From Rhodospirillales bacterium (lineage in GTDB: Bacteria > Pseudomonadota > Alphaproteobacteria > BOG-932 > Roseiterribacteraceae): a stretch of 34,163 nt of DNA. The position numbers were made by a program, and so were the translations under genes. The stretch spans positions 1-34,163 of the forward strand of contig JAQGIE010000158.1 in NCBI GenBank assembly GCA_028291365.1, read 5' to 3'. This document shows positions 10,454 to 34,163 of the stretch, one piece after another (positions within the stretch are counted from its first letter, which is position 1; every line of letters begins with the position of its first letter). The notes beneath the pieces were generated by a model. That model had not been told where the DNA came from and did not search any database. It saw only the letters and a list, made by a program, of their open reading frames with translations.

Positions 10454-10545
10454 GCAATGTCCCCCCGCGAAAGCGGGGGCCCATTCTCATCCATCACGAC
10501 TGCTTCAGAACGGATCCCCGCTTTCGCGGGGACTATTGCTTCGGA
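10453..10545. repeat. Paired palindromic (BIME-like) repeat, copy A
   Basis: There are two hairpins in opposite orientation. The first is CCCCCGC-GAAA-GCGGGGG at 10462-10479 and the second is CCCCGC-TTTC-GCGGGG at 10516-10531. The flanks agree as well: AGCAAT..GTCCCC on the left is mirrored by GGGGAC.ATTGCT on the right, so the whole 93 bp is one imperfect inverted repeat. It starts at the rpoH stop and contains the last codons of the convergent membrane-protein gene. There is no T-run, so it is not a standard intrinsic terminator, though it may stop or stabilise both transcripts. Confidence 0.85.
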
Positions 10546-20586: not shown

Positions 20587-20674
20587 TATTCCCCGCGAAT
20601 AGCGGGGATCCATCGAGCAACGAGCTCGGAAACTGGAGAATGTGGTTGGATGGATCCCCGCTTGCGCGGGGACG
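20587..20674. repeat. Paired palindromic (BIME-like) repeat, copy B
   Basis: CCCCGC-GAATA-GCGGGG at 20591-20607 is followed in opposite orientation by CCCCGC-TTGC-GCGGGG at 20656-20671. The same GGGGATCCAT / ATGGATCCCC flanks appear as in copy C. It sits between serC and serA, so it lies inside the presumed serC-serA transcript and could attenuate or protect it. Confidence 0.85.
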
Positions 20675-23567: not shown

Positions 23568-23700
23568 AGCACACTCCCCGCTGGTGGCGGCACAAAGCCC
23601 GGCCCGGCCCCGATCCACAAGCCGACTTTTCGGGGCAATTTGTTGCGGAGCCGTCCGGCCGCGCCTTTCCTGGCGCCGCCAGCCTGGCCGAAATTCGATC

Positions 23701-23754
23701 TGGTCTCCTCTGGTATCATGTTGGTATGGTCGCCGCAGCGCGGAGAGCAGACCA
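23701..23754 (+). promoter_or_regulatory. Repeated TGGTAT-type half-sites before nagK; candidate GntR operator
   Basis: TGGTCT (23701), TGGTAT (23711) and TGGTAT (23722) lie in the nagK upstream region, the last two spaced 11 bp, about one helical turn. AGACCA (23749-23754) touches the nagK start. TGGTCT/AGACCA are the half-sites of DasR/NagR-type GntR operators, and a gene of that family is second in the operon. The arrangement is not a standard palindrome, so this is a suggestion. Confidence 0.35.
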
Positions 23755-24641
23755 TGGGCGAGCCAATCTTGTTTCTGGGAATCGACGGCGGCGGCACCAG
23801 GTGCCGGGCCCGGCTGACCGATGCGGCGGGCAAGCGCCTGGGTGAGGGGTTCGCCGGCCCAGCCAATATCCGGCTCGGGCTGGAGGCTGCCTGGTCTGCA
23901 ATTCTGGCGGCGACCGACCAGGCGCTGGGCCAGGCGGGCCTGAGCGCCGACGCGATGGGCCGGATCCGCGCCGGCTTCGGCCTCGCCGGCGTTTGCGGCC
24001 CGGAAGACGTCGAGTTCCTTCTCACCGGCAGATCGCCCTTCGCCAGCGTCGAGGTCGAGACCGACGCGCACACGGCCTGCCTCGGCGCCTTTGCGGGCGA
24101 GGACGGCGCCATCCTGATCGTGGGCACCGGCAGCGTCGGCTACGCGCTGATCGGCGGCGTGGCGCATTCGGTCGGCGGCTGGGGCTTCGAGATTTCCGAC
24201 GATGGCAGCGGCGCCGCGATCGGCCGCGAGGCGATCCGCGCCGCCGTCCGTGCGCATGACGGCCTTACCCGCGCGAGCGCGCTGACCGACGCCGTCCTCG
24301 CCAAGCTCGGTCCGCCCACGCGCATCGTCGAATGGGCCGCGTCGGCGAAACCCGGCAATTACGCGACATTTGCGCCGCTGGTGCTCGAACACGCGTTGCA
24401 GGACGACCCGATCGCAACCGAGATCGTGCAGCAGGGCGCGGCGCGGCTCGACGCGCATATCGAGCGCCTGCGCCAGCTCGGCGCGCCGCATATCTGTTTG
24501 ATGGGCGGCGCCGCGAGCGCGATCGAACCATTCCTGTCGCCGCCGGCGCGCGCCGCCCTGGTGCAAGCGAAAGGCGACGCGATGGACGGCGCGCTGCTGC
24601 TGGCCCGGCGCGCAGCGCGCTCCGAACATGGCGCGGCATGA
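23754..24641 (+). CDS. nagK: N-acetylglucosamine kinase (BadF/BadG ATPase family)
   Basis: This 295-aa ASKHA-fold kinase has FLGIDGGGTRCRARLTD at the N-terminus (phosphate-1 loop), then DAHTACLGAFAGEDGAILIVGTGSVGYA (phosphate-2) and a C-terminal GGAAS adenosine loop. In this operon the substrate is most likely free GlcNAc, giving GlcNAc-6-P for NagA; the family also includes glucosamine kinases. I chose ATG 23754, with GGAGAG just upstream. The stop overlaps the regulator start as ATGA. Confidence 0.85.
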   Translation: MGEPILFLGIDGGGTRCRARLTDAAGKRLGEGFAGPANIRLGLEAAWSAILAATDQALGQAGLSADAMGRIRAGFGLAGVCGPEDVEFLLTGRSPFASVEVETDAHTACLGAFAGEDGAILIVGTGSVGYALIGGVAHSVGGWGFEISDDGSGAAIGREAIRAAVRAHDGLTRASALTDAVLAKLGPPTRIVEWAASAKPGNYATFAPLVLEHALQDDPIATEIVQQGAARLDAHIERLRQLGAPHICLMGGAASAIEPFLSPPARAALVQAKGDAMDGALLLARRAARSEHGAA

Positions 24642-25405
24642 GCGGCGCCCTGTTTCATCGCGAGGCGCTGGCGGGCGCGGATTCTGAAACGGCGGGGCCG
24701 CTCTATCTCCAGCTGGCGCGTCACGTGCGCAAGCTGATCGCGGACGGCGCATTGCAGGTCGAGCAGGCGCTGCCGGCCGAGCGCGAACTCGCCGAACGGT
24801 TCGGCGTCTCGCGCGTCACGGTACGCAAGGCGCTGCAGGAACTGGTCGACGAGGGCCTGCTGCAACAACGCGCGCGCGCCGGCACCTATGTCAGCCGCGG
24901 CGTGCATGTCGTGCAGGCGCTGTCGGCGCTGACCGGCTTCACCGAAGACATGCGCTCGCGCGGGCTGGAGCCGAGCTCGCACTGGCTGCGCCGCGGCACC
25001 GCCACCGCGACGCCCGACGAAGCCATGGCGCTGGGGCTGCAACCCGGCGAAATGGTGAGTCGGCTGCATCGCGTGCGCCTGGTCGACGGCACGCCGATCG
25101 CGATCGAACATGCGACCATCGCGGCGCGCTTCCTGCCCGACCCGGACTCGGTTCGCGGCTCGCTTTATGAGCGGCTGCGCGTGCTCGGTCATGGTCCGCA
25201 TCGGGCGCTGCAGCGCCTGTCGGCGATCGTGCTCGACGCCGAGCAGTCGAAGATTCTGCAAGTCCCGCCGGGCACGCCCGCTTTGTCGATCGAGCGGCGC
25301 AGCTTTCTGAAAGACGGACGGCCGCTCGAGCTGATGCGCTCGCAATATCGCGGCGACGCCTATGACGTGATCGTCGAATTGAACCTGAACGAGGCCAAGG
25401 GATGA
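24638..25405 (+). CDS. GntR/HutC-family regulator, probable amino-sugar operon repressor (NagR/DasR type)
   Basis: This 255-aa protein has an N-terminal winged helix (about 20-85; ELAERFGVSRVTVRKALQEL) and a C-terminal UTRA ligand domain (from about 95: LTGFTEDMRSRGLEPSSHWL ... SIERRSFLKDGRPLELMRSQYRG). The UTRA type binds sugar phosphates in NagR/DasR relatives. Position inside the nag operon suggests control by GlcN-6-P or GlcNAc-6-P and autoregulation. It overlaps nagK by 4 nt and precedes the deaminase gene by 28 nt. Confidence 0.88.
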   Translation: MSGALFHREALAGADSETAGPLYLQLARHVRKLIADGALQVEQALPAERELAERFGVSRVTVRKALQELVDEGLLQQRARAGTYVSRGVHVVQALSALTGFTEDMRSRGLEPSSHWLRRGTATATPDEAMALGLQPGEMVSRLHRVRLVDGTPIAIEHATIAARFLPDPDSVRGSLYERLRVLGHGPHRALQRLSAIVLDAEQSKILQVPPGTPALSIERRSFLKDGRPLELMRSQYRGDAYDVIVELNLNEAKG

Positions 25406-25433
25406 CGGTGATCGCCGTTCTTTCTGAAACAAC

Positions 25434-26465
25434 ATGAACACGAACGCTCTTCCCCAAATGGCCCGCGAAGCGGCCGAATCCGGCGCGGCGGCGCGGCGGC
25501 AGATCGCGCGTTGCGGCCCCGGCTTTGCCGCGTTGGGCGAACGGCTGCGCGCGCTCAAGCCGCGCCTGGTCGTCACCTGCGCGCGCGGCAGTTCCGACCA
25601 CGCCGCCTATTACGGCAAATACCTGATCGAAACGCGGCTCGGCCTGCCGGTCGCGTCGATCGGCCCGTCGATCGCGTCGCTCTACGACATCAGGCTGCAG
25701 CTCGACGGCGCGCTGTTCATCGTCGTCTCGCAATCGGGCCGCAGCCCCGATCTGCTGCGCCTGGTCGCCAGCGCGCGCGACAGCGGCGCGCTGGTGGTCG
25801 GGTTCGTCAATGACGAGACCTCGCCGCTGGCGACGTCGTGCGATATCTTCCTGCCGCTGTGCGCCGGACCCGAGATCAGCGTCGCGGCAACCAAATCCTA
25901 TCTGATGTCGGCCTTCGCCTTCCTGCAGCTCGCGGCACATTGGCGCGACGACGCGGCGCTGCACCAGGCGGTGGCGGCGACGCCGCAGGCGTTCGACGAC
26001 GCGATGCGATGCGACTGGAGCGACGCGCTGGCGCGGCTCACCGAGGTCGGCGGCCTCTATGTCATCGCGCGCGGGCTCGGCAACGGTGCGGCGCTGGAAA
26101 TGGCGCTCAAATGCAAGGAGACGTGCCGCCTGCACGCCGAAGCCTTCAGCGCCGCCGAAGTCATTCACGGCCCGCTGGCGCTGGTCGGCCCCGGCTTCCC
26201 GGTCATCGCGCTGACCCAGCACGACGCGACCGAAGAGTCCAACCGCGCCGTCATCGAACGCATGGTTTCGCTCGGCGCGCCGGTGTTGAGCACCGCCGCC
26301 GTCAACGGCACGATCGCGCTGCCGACCGTGCCGAATCTCGCCGCCGAAATCGCGCCGCTGGCGCAGGTGCTGAGCTTCTATCTCGCCATTCACAAAGTTG
26401 CGCGGGCACGCGGGCTGGATCCCGACACGCCGCCGAACCTCAAGAAGGTGACGGAGACGGTGTGA
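25434..26465 (+). CDS. nagB-II: SIS-domain glucosamine-6-phosphate deaminase (NagB-II type)
   Basis: This 343-aa protein consists of two SIS domains like the isomerase half of GlmS, without the glutaminase half. The first SIS has TCARGSSDHAAYYGKYLIE and VVSQSGRSPD; the second has IARGLGNGAALEMALKCKET, and the C-terminal NLKKVTETV is the GlmS/AgaS-type ending. In the nag operon this should deaminate GlcN-6-P to fructose-6-P, replacing classical NagB. The TGATG overlap couples it to nagA. A sugar-isomerase role on another amino sugar is the alternative. Confidence 0.88.
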   Translation: MNTNALPQMAREAAESGAAARRQIARCGPGFAALGERLRALKPRLVVTCARGSSDHAAYYGKYLIETRLGLPVASIGPSIASLYDIRLQLDGALFIVVSQSGRSPDLLRLVASARDSGALVVGFVNDETSPLATSCDIFLPLCAGPEISVAATKSYLMSAFAFLQLAAHWRDDAALHQAVAATPQAFDDAMRCDWSDALARLTEVGGLYVIARGLGNGAALEMALKCKETCRLHAEAFSAAEVIHGPLALVGPGFPVIALTQHDATEESNRAVIERMVSLGAPVLSTAAVNGTIALPTVPNLAAEIAPLAQVLSFYLAIHKVARARGLDPDTPPNLKKVTETV

Positions 26466-27568
26466 TGCGCCAGACGCTCACCGGCGCACGAATCTTCACC
26501 GGCGAGTCGACGCTCGACGATCACGCGCTGGTGCTGGAGGACGAGCGGATCGTCGACCTGGTGCCCGCGCGCGACGCGCCCAACCTGCCGCCGGGATCGA
26601 TCCTGGCGGCAGGTTTCGTCGATACGCAGGTGAATGGCGGCGGCGGCGTGCTGTTCAACGCGACGCCGACCGCAGCTTCGATCCGGACCATCCAAGCCGC
26701 GCATCGCCGCTTCGGCACCACGACGTTGCTGCCGACCTTGATCACCGACACCGAAACCAAAATGCAGGAAGCGGTTGCGGCGGCGCGTGAGGCCGGCACC
26801 GGCATCCATCTCGAAGGGCCGTTCATTTCGCGCGAGCGCCGCGGCGTGCACGAAGCCCGCTACGTGCGCCCACCGACCGCGGACGACATCGCGTTTCTCT
26901 GCGCCTTGCCTGCAATCCTGCCGCGCGTGCTGGTTTCGCTCGCGCCCGAAACGGTTGCACCCGAGGACGTCGCGCGGCTTGTCCAGGCGGGGCTGGTCGT
27001 GGCCGGTGCGCATTCGGCCGCGAGCTACGAGCGCACGCGCGAGGCGCTGGCGCGCGGCATGACCGGCTTCACGCATCTGTTCAACGCGATGCCGCCCTTG
27101 GCCAATCGCGCGCCCGGCATCGCCGGCGCCGCGCTGGACGACGCATCGAGCTGGTGCGGCGTCATCGTCGACGGCGTGCATGTCCATCCGGCCATGCTGA
27201 AACTGGCGCTGGCGGCCAAGCCGCGCGGCAAGCTGTTCCTGGTCACCGACTCGATGCCGCCGTTGGGCACCGAGCTGACGCGGTTCGAGCTGTATGGACA
27301 GACCATTCATCGCCGCGACGGGCGGCTCGTCACCGACGACGGCACCCTGGCGGGCGCCGATCTCGACATGGCGCAGGCGGTACGCAACGCGGTGTCGATG
27401 CTGGGCGTCGGTCTCGACGAGGCGCTGCGCATGGCCTCGCTCTACCCGGCCCAGTTCATCGGCCTTGCCGATCGCGGCCGAATTGCCCCCGGCCTGCGCG
27501 CGGATCTGGTCCTTCTCGACGAGACGTTGCACGTGCATGCCACCTGGATTGGCGGCCAATCCGACTGA
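26465..27568 (+). CDS. nagA: N-acetylglucosamine-6-phosphate deacetylase
   Basis: This 367-aa amidohydrolase removes acetate from GlcNAc-6-P. It has GFVDTQVNGGGG near the N-terminus, the metal ligand Glu117 in HLEGPFISRERRGVHE, His183 (GAHS), His204 (THLFNAM) and the catalytic Asp262 in VTDSMPPLG. Length and motif order are normal. The start overlaps the deaminase stop by 1 nt. A 34-nt gap separates it from the osmC gene. Confidence 0.95.
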   Translation: MRQTLTGARIFTGESTLDDHALVLEDERIVDLVPARDAPNLPPGSILAAGFVDTQVNGGGGVLFNATPTAASIRTIQAAHRRFGTTTLLPTLITDTETKMQEAVAAAREAGTGIHLEGPFISRERRGVHEARYVRPPTADDIAFLCALPAILPRVLVSLAPETVAPEDVARLVQAGLVVAGAHSAASYERTREALARGMTGFTHLFNAMPPLANRAPGIAGAALDDASSWCGVIVDGVHVHPAMLKLALAAKPRGKLFLVTDSMPPLGTELTRFELYGQTIHRRDGRLVTDDGTLAGADLDMAQAVRNAVSMLGVGLDEALRMASLYPAQFIGLADRGRIAPGLRADLVLLDETLHVHATWIGGQSD

Positions 27569-30906: not shown

Positions 30907-31000
30907 ATTCCCCGCGAAAGCGGGGATCCATCGGGCCGTTGGCGTTGGGTCGCCGACATCCCGGTGGTCGAATCAATGGGTCCCCGCTTTCGCGGGGAAT
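30907..31000. repeat. Paired palindromic (BIME-like) repeat, copy C
   Basis: CCCCGC-GAAA-GCGGGG (30910-30925) and the inverted CCCCGC-TTTC-GCGGGG (30982-30997) are flanked by ATTCCCCGC and its mirror GCGGGGAAT. The right end reaches the stop codon of the Cache-receptor gene. It lies upstream of the TonB-receptor gene, between two minus-strand genes. Confidence 0.85.
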
Positions 31001-32433
31001 TACGCCGCCTGCCGCAGATGGGCCTTGAGTTGCGACAGAGCGGCTTCGAGCGTGGCGCGTTCGCGCTGGGGCTCGGGACAATTGCGCAGCACGTATTCAG
31101 CGGTGCGCACCACGTCGCGCCAGCGCGGATTGCGCGGCAAGGTCTCGACCAGGAAATACTTGTCCATGGTCCGGGTCTGGAGCGAGGACCGGTCCATATA
31201 GACGCGCCACAGGCCGCTTTCCTCGGCAAGCTCGACCTTCCCGTTGCTCTTGCTGCGCTGCCAGCAATCGAGCGCGGCCACCATCACTTCGACGATGCAG
31301 CGGCGATAGCCGTCGTCGAGATCCAGCGGGTGCGGCGCGTCTTCGCCGCTTTCCGGAGCGTCGGCATCCTGCAGGTCGGGTTGGGCCGCGACCGCGCTGA
31401 CGATCGGATGCACCGACGCGATCGGCCGCTCCGGAACCTCGCCCCGCGCCTCGACCGGTACTTGCCTATACATAAGGAGTCGCAGCGACGCGGCGGTCGC
31501 GAGCAGGCCGAACAGGGCCAGCCCCCACACGAACAGCCAGCGATCGCCGGCCAATTGGCCGCGATCGGCGAGGACTGCGTATTTCCAGCCGGTTTCCGGC
31601 ACCGCAAACGGACCGTAGCTGCGTTCGCCACGTTCGATCGCAGACGCCGCGATCGGCGCGCCCTGCGCGTCGAGCAGATGAAAGCGCAGGCCCGGCCGCT
31701 GCAGTGCCGCGAGCCGCTGTTCGAGATTTGCCATCGGCAGGCGGAAGGCGACGACGCCTTCGACGGTGCCGTGCCGCACCACCGGCCGCGCCAGCAGCAC
31801 GCCGAAACTGTCGTCGAGACGCTTCAGGCCGGACACGACCAGGATCTGGGCGGGGTCGGTCGATTGCTGCAGCCGCGCCATCACTTCGCGAAACACTTCG
31901 GCCAGCGGCGTGTCGCGCTGGCGCGCCGATGCCAAGTCGGTCGCAAAGGCACTGTCTTTGCGCAAAGAGTAAACGACGCGGCCGACCCGATCGACGAGGT
32001 AGAGATCGTCGAACAGGCTGGTCTCGATCATGGCCTGGAAGCTGGGATGAAACCGCTCATGCACGTTGGCGTAGGGCGGCAGCACCGACGGCATGTCCTG
32101 CGGCTGGATCTGGCCTTGCACATAGACCTGGCGCAGCAACGCGGCGGCGCGTTCGGGATCGGGCGAGATCTGGCCGAAGGCCGGTGCGAATCCGTAATAC
32201 CGGCCGATCGAGTAGCCGATGAAACTGGTGCTGGCGAAGGCCGCGCTCTGCGTCTTGGCGAATTCGACCAGAGTGCCGAGATCATGTTCTGCCGAAGAAC
32301 GGGCGAACTCGATCTGGAATTGAGTCTTGCTCTCGATAGTATCGGCAAGCAGAAGCAACGCCGCCACAAAGGCAGCGATCAATGGCAGTAGGTATGCTGC
32401 CCCAGCATTCCGTAGCGCTCCAAGCCAGCGCAC
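31000..32433 (-). CDS. Membrane receptor with Cache-like periplasmic sensor and unrecognised cytoplasmic domain
   Basis: This 477-aa protein has TM1 at about 13-31 and TM2 at about 299-319. They enclose a ~265-residue periplasmic region that resembles a double Cache sensor (FDDLYLVDRVGRVVYSLRKD; membrane-proximal GPFAVPETGWKYAVLADRG). Usual outputs are absent: no HAMP, methyl-accepting, kinase, GGDEF or EAL motif follows. Instead there is an acidic linker (~325-375) and a ~100-residue domain (GYRRCIVEVMVAALDCWQRS ... MDKYFLVETLPRNPRWRDVV) that I do not recognise. GTG 32433 is preceded by a strong AGGGGGAG. Its position between the receptor and nagZ may hint at a cell-wall-sugar signal, but that is speculative. 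Confidence 0.78.
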   Translation of the reverse strand: MRWLGALRNAGAAYLLPLIAAFVAALLLLADTIESKTQFQIEFARSSAEHDLGTLVEFAKTQSAAFASTSFIGYSIGRYYGFAPAFGQISPDPERAAALLRQVYVQGQIQPQDMPSVLPPYANVHERFHPSFQAMIETSLFDDLYLVDRVGRVVYSLRKDSAFATDLASARQRDTPLAEVFREVMARLQQSTDPAQILVVSGLKRLDDSFGVLLARPVVRHGTVEGVVAFRLPMANLEQRLAALQRPGLRFHLLDAQGAPIAASAIERGERSYGPFAVPETGWKYAVLADRGQLAGDRWLFVWGLALFGLLATAASLRLLMYRQVPVEARGEVPERPIASVHPIVSAVAAQPDLQDADAPESGEDAPHPLDLDDGYRRCIVEVMVAALDCWQRSKSNGKVELAEESGLWRVYMDRSSLQTRTMDKYFLVETLPRNPRWRDVVRTAEYVLRNCPEPQRERATLEAALSQLKAHLRQAA

Positions 32434-32596
32434 CCGTTCTCCCCCTGATCCATGCGCTTCTCGTCTTTTGTTTTGACGATTTTGCCGGCGGTTTGATTAC
32501 CCGTCGGCTTCGCGCTTCCTCCGGACCATACCGTCAAGTTCGTTCAACCGACAAGCGAGCCTTGATCGAAAGAACACGATCCAGAAGCTCTGTTGC

Positions 32597-33613
32597 ATGA
32601 ACACGACGCCCAGCGCAGCGCCCCTCGCCGTCATCTTCGGCGCACCGGGCCCGGTCCTGACCCGGGCGCAGTTCGACTTCTTCCGCGACGCCGATCCGCT
32701 CGGCCTGATCCTGTTCAGCCGCAACTGCGAGACGCCCGACCAGTTGAAGCGGCTGTGCGAGCAGTTCCGGGAGGCGGTCGGGCGCGAGGCGCCGATCCTG
32801 ATCGACCACGAGGGCGGCGAGCATCAGCGCATGGACCCGCCGGTGTGGCCGGCCTTCCCCGCCCCTGCTGCGTTCGGCCGGCTTTATGCACGCGACCCCG
32901 CCCGCGCCGTCGAGCTGGCGCGGCTCAACGGCAACGCCATCGGCAGCCTGCTATGCGACCACGGAATCGACGTCGATTGCGCGCCGCTGCTCGACCTGCC
33001 CGTCGCCGGCGCCGATCCGGTCATCGGCGAACGTGCCTTCGGCTCGGCGCCGGCGCAGGTGATCGCGCTGGGCCGCGCTTTCACCGACGGCATGCTGGCG
33101 GCGGGCGTCACGCCGGTGATCAAGCACATTCCCGGACACGGGCGCGCGCTGGTCGACAGCCACAAGCAGCTTCCCACCGTCGACGTGCCGCTCGACGAAC
33201 TCGACCGCACCGATTTCGCGCCGTTCCGCGCGCTGGCCGACGCGCCCTGGGGCATGGTCGCGCATATCGTCTATCCGGCCATCGATCCCGAACGGCCGGC
33301 TTCGACCTCGCAAGCGATCGTCGAGGGATTGATCCGCAAGCGGCTCGGCTTTGGCGGCGTGCTGATTTCGGACTGTATCTACATGGATGCGCTGGCGGGC
33401 GACTTGCCCCGACGCTGCGCCGACGTGCTCGCCGCGGGCATGGATATCGCGCTGTCGAGCCATGGCGACGTCGAAGACTGGACGCGAATCGCAGCCGCGG
33501 CGCGACCACTGACGCAGGATGCCCAGCAACGGCTGGTGCGACGCCGCACGACTCAGCAGACGGTCGACGTCGAGCGGGCGGTGCGCGAGCTCACGCGGCA
33601 ACTCGCGGCGTGA
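32597..33613 (+). CDS. nagZ: Beta-N-acetylhexosaminidase (NagZ, GH3)
   Basis: This 338-aa single-domain GH3 enzyme splits GlcNAc from anhydro-muropeptides in peptidoglycan recycling. It has LILFSRNCETPDQLK, IDHEGG (usually IDQEGG), the KHIPGHG motif at 176-182 with the general acid/base dyad Asp187/His189 (DSH), and nucleophile Asp259 in ISDCIYMDAL. There is no signal peptide, as expected for the cytoplasmic enzyme. It lies with an ABC solute-binding gene downstream and nag genes nearby, consistent with feeding GlcNAc to NagK and NagA. Confidence 0.94.
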   Translation: MNTTPSAAPLAVIFGAPGPVLTRAQFDFFRDADPLGLILFSRNCETPDQLKRLCEQFREAVGREAPILIDHEGGEHQRMDPPVWPAFPAPAAFGRLYARDPARAVELARLNGNAIGSLLCDHGIDVDCAPLLDLPVAGADPVIGERAFGSAPAQVIALGRAFTDGMLAAGVTPVIKHIPGHGRALVDSHKQLPTVDVPLDELDRTDFAPFRALADAPWGMVAHIVYPAIDPERPASTSQAIVEGLIRKRLGFGGVLISDCIYMDALAGDLPRRCADVLAAGMDIALSSHGDVEDWTRIAAAARPLTQDAQQRLVRRRTTQQTVDVERAVRELTRQLAA

Positions 33614-33629: not shown

Positions 33630-33677
33630 ATGCGGCGGCGCCGCATCTGGTTTCGGCACGGCGGCGAAGCCGCCTTT
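33630..33677 (+). terminator. Two tandem hairpins after nagZ; weak terminator candidate
   Basis: ATGCGGC-GGC-GCCGCAT (33630-33646) is followed by GGCGGC-GAA-GCCGCC (33660-33674) and a TTT. The T-run is short, so termination may be partial and the next gene could still be co-transcribed. Confidence 0.4.
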
Positions 33678-33779
33678 GCGACAAACCGCCGAACTTGCCG
33701 CAGCGAACGCGCCTGCCATGACGAAATCAACGAGTTTACGACTAGCAGACGCGGCCCCGGACTTGGGACAGTGCGCATC

Positions 33780-34163
33780 ATGAATCGCATCGCCCGCTGC
33801 CGCCTGACTCTTGCCGCCCTTCTCGTTGCCGGCGGTGCTGGTCTGTTCGTCGGCAGCGTCGCTGCCGCGCAGACCGCGCCGGCGCCGGCCACGCTGAACG
33901 TGGTGGCGAACCTGACCACCGGCTGGGTGCGCAACTTCAACCCGTTCAACGAGACGACGCGGCTGCATTCGGTCCGCGAGTTCGTCTACGAGCCGCTGGT
34001 CATCTTCAACGCCATGCATAACGGCCAGCCGCATTTCCGGCTGGCGACCAATTTCGACTTCTCGCCCAACCTGCTGAAGCTGACCTTCACGCTGCGCGAT
34101 GACGTGAAATGGTCCGACGGGCAGAGTTTCACCTCGAAGGACGTCGCCTTCACCTTCGAGCTG
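33780..34163 (+). CDS. ABC transporter family 5 solute-binding protein (N-terminal part, runs off the window)
   Basis: The first 128 residues are visible. A signal peptide ends with VAAA before QTAPAPA. The mature start LNVVANLTTGWVRNFNPFNE and the segment LRDDVKWSDGQSFTSKDVAF are hallmarks of SBP_bac_5 proteins (OppA/DppA/chitobiose-binding type). Periplasmic binding of peptides, muropeptides or oligosaccharides is expected. It lies 166 nt after nagZ in the same direction. The substrate is unknown; a cell-wall peptide or chito-oligosaccharide would suit the context. Confidence 0.88.
   Translation, partial: MNRIARCRLTLAALLVAGGAGLFVGSVAAAQTAPAPATLNVVANLTTGWVRNFNPFNETTRLHSVREFVYEPLVIFNAMHNGQPHFRLATNFDFSPNLLKLTFTLRDDVKWSDGQSFTSKDVAFTFEL

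Follow-up and report, generated by a model that had tools for sequence, protein, structure and literature searches.

A kinase-less relative of ChiS in Alphaproteobacteria, predicted to join a dCache-type sensor directly to a ChiS-family DNA-binding domain

The question raised by this locus is what a 477-residue membrane receptor might control when its periplasmic sensor is of a familiar type and its cytoplasmic end had been left without an assignment. The window, by which we mean the whole stretch of 34,163 nucleotides analysed here, is one entire contig of a Rhodospirillales bacterium (genome G000), and its end cuts the gene for a chitooligosaccharide-binding protein (CBP). The receptor gene occupies positions 31000–32433 of the minus strand, as the first-pass annotation had it, with a GTG start and a stop codon at 31000–31002; a whole-protein search of the genome found a single copy. 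We call its product mini-ChiS, a kinase-less ChiS. Hydropathy and an AF2 model (mean pLDDT 83.1; 32 alignment rows) place one transmembrane segment at residues 12–30 (32344–32400, a long helix in the model) and another at residues 299–317 (31483–31539, model helix 298–323), flanking a periplasmic sensor of the dCache type at residues ~31–298 (31540–32343). An acidic linker follows at residues 327–368 (31330–31455), a low-confidence stretch with pLDDT below 50, and then a compact domain at residues 370–477 (31003–31326) that contains MDKYFLVETLPRNPRWRDVV and appears in the model as a helical domain at 369–476. All of these features are encoded on the minus strand, and the order of a poorly modelled linker and a compact domain agrees with the separate C-terminal domain proposed previously.

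ChiS is a membrane protein of vibrios that senses chitin and switches on genes for chitin use. By sequence and by model, the C-terminal domain of mini-ChiS is a ChiS-family DNA-binding domain, and we infer that it binds DNA. With the whole protein as query, phmmer found one strong match among PDB sequences, 7kpo (residues 374–470, E 2.2e-27), which the C-terminal domain alone recovered at E 6e-29; identity between the two is 48% over 97 residues. Foldseek ranked 7kpo second for the whole AF2 model (E 1.6e-6, target TM 0.82) and first for a model of the domain (E 5e-7, TM 0.82), where it alone among 167 matches fell below 0.001. This entry is the C-terminal DNA-binding domain of Vibrio cholerae ChiS, described as a variant helix-turn-helix, or ‘helix-sheet-helix’ (PMC8092284). 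The first-pass annotation had supposed an unassigned, perhaps new, output domain; sequence and structure searches refute this, since a known output domain is matched clearly in both sequence and fold.

Finer detail supports the same assignment. Five ChiS residues are reported as critical for DNA binding, namely R1068, R1074, K1078, R1090 and R1092 (PMC8092284), and alignment to ChiS shows all five kept in mini-ChiS, as R415, R421, K425, R437 and R439, in a stretch encoded at 31117–31197 of the minus strand. The equivalent of R1068, present in the window protein, is missing from seven of the eight domains of other architecture in the same alignment. The domain also sits at the very C-terminus (370–477 of 477). 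Its fold matches 7kpo overall, yet no strands are assigned in the sheet region, where confidence is low (pLDDT below 50 at residues 414–418, and at residues 42–49 of the domain model). Domains of this type are easily missed, because 12 members scanned singly, Vibrio-like ChiS included, have no Pfam or NCBIfam model in common; the few matches obtained were each confined to one member and due to chance, the best at E 0.0029. For mini-ChiS itself, Pfam at E up to 10 returned only weak dCache_1 and CHASE4 matches, with no model for the output domain, and an NCBIfam scan gave no match. The ChiS-type DNA-binding domain is therefore a practical gap in the Pfam and NCBIfam copies that we used. A candidate for a second such domain in the same genome, a weak match on C20 (E 6e-4), was rejected, as the stretch examined there (L123) yielded nothing at E 1e-5.

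The Cache-like character claimed for the periplasmic part held up. Pfam dCache_1 matched it at E 0.0017 (18.4 bits, below the cut-off of 45), and Foldseek of the AF2 model retrieved the sensors of DctB, Mlp24, KinD and Tlp3 (E ~1e-6, target TM about 0.4–0.66), indicating a dCache fold. Profile-profile comparison (hhalign) of seven mini-ChiS sensors with six Vibrio-like ChiS sensors gave a probability of 99.1 and E 4.9e-19 over 213 columns. When the window sensor was compared by blastp with 18 minis, seven full-length ChiS proteins and the long ORFs of 22 further loci, the ChiS sensor of the alphaproteobacterium G211 scored 149 bits, the Vibrio-like ChiS sensors 77–88 bits, the proteins of the 22 other loci 54–73 bits and the mini of genome G247 63 bits. 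Outside the minis, the nearest sensor relatives among the proteins compared are thus ChiS sensors by sequence similarity, the margin being modest for the Vibrio-like ones, since many other proteins resemble the window sensor nearly as closely as these do.

What distinguishes mini-ChiS is its missing middle. Pfam at E up to 10 found no HAMP, histidine kinase, receiver or PAS domain in it, and the linker at 327–368 stands where ChiS has its HAMP-kinase-receiver-PAS region. Full ChiS relatives, by comparison, are frames of 1122–1173 residues in six Vibrio-like genomes (six of the nine with a match) and in G211, where the protein carries HAMP, HisKA, HATPase and receiver domains. In comparison with the sister genome G014, mini-ChiS as a whole has a dN/dS of 0.165, its sensor 0.132 and its DNA-binding domain 0.072; the linker evolves fast (0.458, 42 aligned codons). 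Low dN/dS and an architecture that recurs in 19 genomes together argue that mini-ChiS is not a chance ORF. These 19 genomes, all alphaproteobacterial and from four families, comprise the window’s own, G014, G277, G355, G247 and 14 of the 82 in the order of G175; the copy in G849 is incomplete, being cut by the edge of its contig. A draw of 385 alphaproteobacterial genomes (the window’s included) had the domain in eight, as seven minis and the G211 hybrid, and among gammaproteobacterial genomes the domain was found in 8 of 369. The examined stretches of the seven newly found gammaproteobacterial loci, some of which end at a contig edge, had neither a ChiS-like sensor nor a CBP gene. Gammaproteobacterial ChiS-family domains (L063–L070, L116–L122) are carried on other sensors; the domain protein of G406 has eight predicted hydrophobic segments, and that of G647 is 391 residues long with one segment.

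The neighbouring genes bear out the place given to mini-ChiS in the first-pass annotation, between a TonB receptor and nagZ. The TonB-dependent receptor gene (28151–~30748, minus strand) is the next gene downstream, as it is in 18 of the 19 genomes. On the plus strand, a GH3 gene of the NagZ type (32597–33613), predicted to encode a beta-N-acetylhexosaminidase, is the first gene of a divergent operon and is followed by the CBP gene (33630–34163, probable start ~33780). Close by, GlcNAc catabolic genes for a BadF/BadG-type kinase (nagK-like), a GntR/UTRA regulator, an SIS deaminase-like protein and nagA lie at 23700–27568 of the plus strand. Across the loci nagZ is not constant: 13 of the 19 have it as the next divergent gene, and G838, G840, G841 and G842 lack it at that position, while in G849 the divergent gene lies beyond the visible contig and in G247 the gene order differs, the regulator coming last in the CBP-transporter run. 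A 16-bp palindromic, REP-like element, CCCCGCGAAAGCGGGG, occurs five times in the window against an expectation of 0.10 (four copies are exact and the fifth has a mismatch; two inverted pairs are among them) at 10463–10531, 20656–20671 and 30910–30997, one pair falling between mini-ChiS and the TonB receptor gene.

The CBP gene is beside or near that of mini-ChiS in all 17 testable genomes (the contigs of G851 and G849 are too short). The 178-residue window frame matches VhCBP at E 1.5e-25, compared with 4e-6 for the next family, and the full-length CBP of G277 reaches E ~1e-160 with VcCBP and VhCBP, compared with ~1e-48 for the next family. Downstream of CBP, 12 mini loci (11 and G247) have genes for a permease and an ATPase, and no such gene was found in the examined stretches of G840, G841 and G842, with either protein or translated searches; the contigs of G000 and G838 stop before these genes could appear. 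Retention of CBP without nearby transporter genes in G840, G841 and G842 fits a role for it in signalling. The sugar contacts described for VhCBP are E10, N204, S221, W363, D365, N409, F411, R436, F437 and W513 (PMC8449061). Among 17 alphaproteobacterial CBPs (those of 16 minis and the G211 hybrid, the window copy being cut before the contacts and left out), N204, W363, D365 and R436 are kept in every one, F411 in 13 and F437 in 12, with T in four and W in one of the others; E10 and N409 are changed in all 17, S221 in 16, and W513 has become F in 16 and H in one.

Other genes bear on which sugar is sensed. The product of murQ is N-acetylmuramic acid 6-phosphate etherase, an enzyme of peptidoglycan recycling. 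Its gene adjoins CBP in G840 (L109:5511–6434) and G842 (L114:11579–12514) and follows the transporter genes in G837 (L111:16260–17081); only these three of the loci searched have it, and in them its position links the CBP cluster to cell-wall sugar recycling. A GH18 chitinase was found in 9 of the 19 genomes searched, with 8 of 16 minis having one and 8 lacking it; genome searches found none in G000, G014, G247 or the G211 hybrid, and of two non-mini relatives G147 has one and G246 does not. The lack of GH18 in the window’s own genome, taken with murQ and nagZ, suggests that the cue may be oligomers released by other organisms or peptidoglycan fragments. The earlier guess of an amino-sugar or cell-wall cue gains support from the CBP gene next but one and from murQ in three loci.

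Two putative operators lie between mini-ChiS and nagZ: operator A, GTTTTGACGATTTTGCCGGC, a 9-bp direct repeat at 32470–32489 of the plus strand found by both matrix and pattern, and the weaker operator B, GGTTGAACGAACTTGACGGT, with the same core on the other strand at 32530–32549. The matrix was built from 12 putative ChiS sites in the CBP promoters of six Vibrio-like genomes, each of which has two tandem sites of the form TTTTRACGNTTTTRACG 30 bp apart; conserved elements upstream of the minis were already known when these sites were picked, so that the matrix is not blind. Pchb is reported to require two helically phased ChiS sites (PMC13316777). Sites A and B of the window, by comparison with the tandem Vibrio-like pairs, face each other 60 bp apart.

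In a scan of 21 alphaproteobacterial loci on both strands (713,432 scores), the highest-scoring site of a 460-base region around and upstream of the regulator start was one of the top 24 for 18 of the 19 loci, the window included, a count that does not amount to 18 independent cases, as the 19 loci are related. With 150 column-permuted matrices, a top-40 site appeared in a mean of 2.0 and a maximum of 12 of the 19 loci, against 18 for the real matrix. Operator A is the single window match to the operator pattern with at most one mismatch, where 0 of 100 shuffles had any, and also the only one with at most three, where 12 of 100 shuffles had at least one; when the intergenic region was shuffled 2000 times, its matrix score was reached twice. 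Across ten whole genomes, a degenerate pattern gave 37 matches compared with 2 for the reversed pattern, and the site upstream of chiS was among them in eight; the other two matches in G000 lie within ORFs that have no link to chitin. Four high-scoring matches inside transporter genes (L037, L038, L105, L106) are probably due to chance. G247 has no good matrix site upstream of its regulator or of CBP, no strong site was found upstream of the window’s GlcNAc catabolic set, which has its own regulator, and a promoter scan of the mini-ChiS/nagZ intergenic region found nothing. The g471 genomes have a site upstream of nagK or the SIS gene in six of seven. In G211, high-scoring putative sites lie upstream of CBP, and a GH20 hexosaminidase frame (L039:6311–8367) has one upstream and one at its start; an OprD-type porin gene is divergent to chiS there.

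We propose, with a probability of about 0.7, that mini-ChiS is a membrane-anchored one-component regulator controlled by CBP loaded with GlcNAc-containing oligomers, a reading in which ligand, signalling and DNA binding are all predicted from sequence and from what is known of ChiS. In V. cholerae, CBP is reported to repress ChiS without chitin and, when chitin-bound, to activate it, and activated ChiS binds Pchb while still anchored in the membrane (PMC10208484, PMC11856585). A chimera in which the cytoplasmic part of ChiS is placed on the membrane segments of Mlp37 still activates Pchb (PMC11856585), and the mutations with which ChiS evades repression by dephospho-EIIA(Glc) lie at and just after HAMP (PMC10208484). 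As mini-ChiS keeps both ends and drops the middle, control would pass directly from sensor to DNA-binding domain. GlcNAc oligomers, most likely chitooligosaccharides and possibly peptidoglycan fragments, would enter through the neighbouring TonB receptor and be bound by CBP in the periplasm; ligand-bound CBP, or the loss of apo-CBP, would then switch the dCache sensor. The change would cross the membrane and reach the DNA-binding domains by way of the short flexible linker; these domains would occupy the intergenic sites and turn on nagZ-CBP, together with the transporter where present, and perhaps also the TonB receptor and nag genes. No phosphotransfer would be needed.

Two other readings keep this output and change the cue. 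The ligand may be a peptidoglycan fragment such as the GlcNAc-MurNAc disaccharide, possibly still carried by CBP, which would make mini-ChiS a regulator of cell-wall recycling; nagZ beside 13 of the 19 genes, the murQ genes of G840, G842 and G837, the lack of GH18 in G000, G014 and six other minis of 16, and the several altered VhCBP contacts all speak for it. We nevertheless think it unlikely, given that N204, W363, D365 and R436 are kept in all 17 CBPs, that murQ occurs in only three of the loci searched, and that the closest solved relatives of these CBPs, by ~110 orders of magnitude in E, bind chitooligosaccharides. Alternatively, the dCache domain might bind a small ligand such as an amino acid or a carboxylate directly, with CBP as a regulated target only. 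The best PDB folds for the sensor, DctB, Mlp24, KinD and Tlp3, are ligand-binding dCache domains and would suit such a mechanism; however, the closest relatives found are ChiS sensors, which depend on CBP in V. cholerae (PMC10208484, PMC11856585), and the link to CBP in 17 of 17 testable genomes, three of them without nearby transporter genes, makes direct binding improbable.

The remaining two readings concern the missing modules. Were mini-ChiS a truncated remnant that binds DNA with its signal control lost or reduced, acting as a constitutive activator or repressor, this would accord with the absence of everything from HAMP onward, the modules thought to pass the ChiS signal (PMC10208484). 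Purifying selection on the sensor (0.132) as well as on the DNA-binding domain (0.072), and the recurrence of the architecture in 19 genomes of four families, leave this quite improbable. We give still less credence to a split system, with mini-ChiS as one half and a kinase or response regulator supplied in trans as the other. ChiS in its full form is a hybrid kinase, and orphan kinases are common in genomes, but the examined stretches of the 19 mini loci contain no kinase ORF and only one receiver ORF, a separate 235-residue protein in G271, and mini-ChiS itself has no receiver or phospho-acceptor domain. CBP-gated, one-component control by GlcNAc-containing oligomers therefore stays our preferred reading.

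As to descent, mini-ChiS probably derives from ChiS or shares a common ancestor with it. A tree of the DNA-binding domain unites 17 minis in one supported clade (97/93), with the placement of G247 unsure, and in a CBP-permease tree 11 minis group together (100/100) with the G211 hybrid as sister (91/89) and G247 outside. A single clade of all minis appears in 9% of bootstrap trees, yet the AU test does not reject it (p-AU 0.448). As full hybrids are present in both classes, and minis with a ChiS sensor turned up here in Alphaproteobacteria alone, the simpler reading is that the kinase module was lost, once or twice. More tentatively, ChiS may have shed its whole kinase-receiver module, possibly twice (in the 17-mini clade and in G247), with the sensor, the link to CBP, the DNA-binding surface and the operator still recognisable across two classes; this would be a natural experiment in which a hybrid kinase can work as a CBP-gated one-component receptor, with the kinase as an add-on.

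Compared with V. cholerae ChiS, mini-ChiS shares the DNA-binding domain, a CBP gene nearby and a similar predicted operator, as well as a related sensor with two membrane segments (a comparison made with Vibrio-like relatives and not with V. cholerae itself). It differs in lacking HAMP, kinase, receiver and PAS, with ~150 cytoplasmic residues where ChiS has ~750, and in having divergent intergenic operators of other spacing with nagZ as the usual next divergent gene. Membrane-anchored regulators of other DNA-binding families offer a further parallel, for which no homology is claimed; the DNA-binding family of ToxR differs from the ChiS type. TfoS, an AraC-family protein (PMC7564644), and ToxR are like mini-ChiS in combining a membrane-anchored sensor and a DNA-binding domain in one chain (PMC11856585, PMC13316777). 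Within the ChiS family as described in PMC8092284, mini-ChiS agrees in the domain, its key residues, its C-terminal position and its overall fold; the Fig. 5 legend of that paper names HAMP, HK, Rec, PAS, TPR and 7TMR-DISM as partners, and a dCache sensor leading straight to the domain is absent from that legend. Our literature searches, which lacked the 2020 PNAS paper on ChiS, found no description of a kinase-less ChiS. The domain is thus a known one, but the shorter architecture, dCache sensor straight to DNA-binding domain, is apparently undescribed and is strongly supported by comparison.

In conclusion, mini-ChiS can be put forward as a specific regulator, for which a ligand carrier, an operator and target genes are all predicted, in a lineage for which literature searches found no work on ChiS. 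If the proposal is true, the sensor and DNA-binding ends of ChiS would suffice without the kinase, and the family would have an operator consensus that spans two classes. Mini-ChiS would also offer a small protein with which to study structurally how binding proteins gate DNA-binding domains tethered to the membrane.
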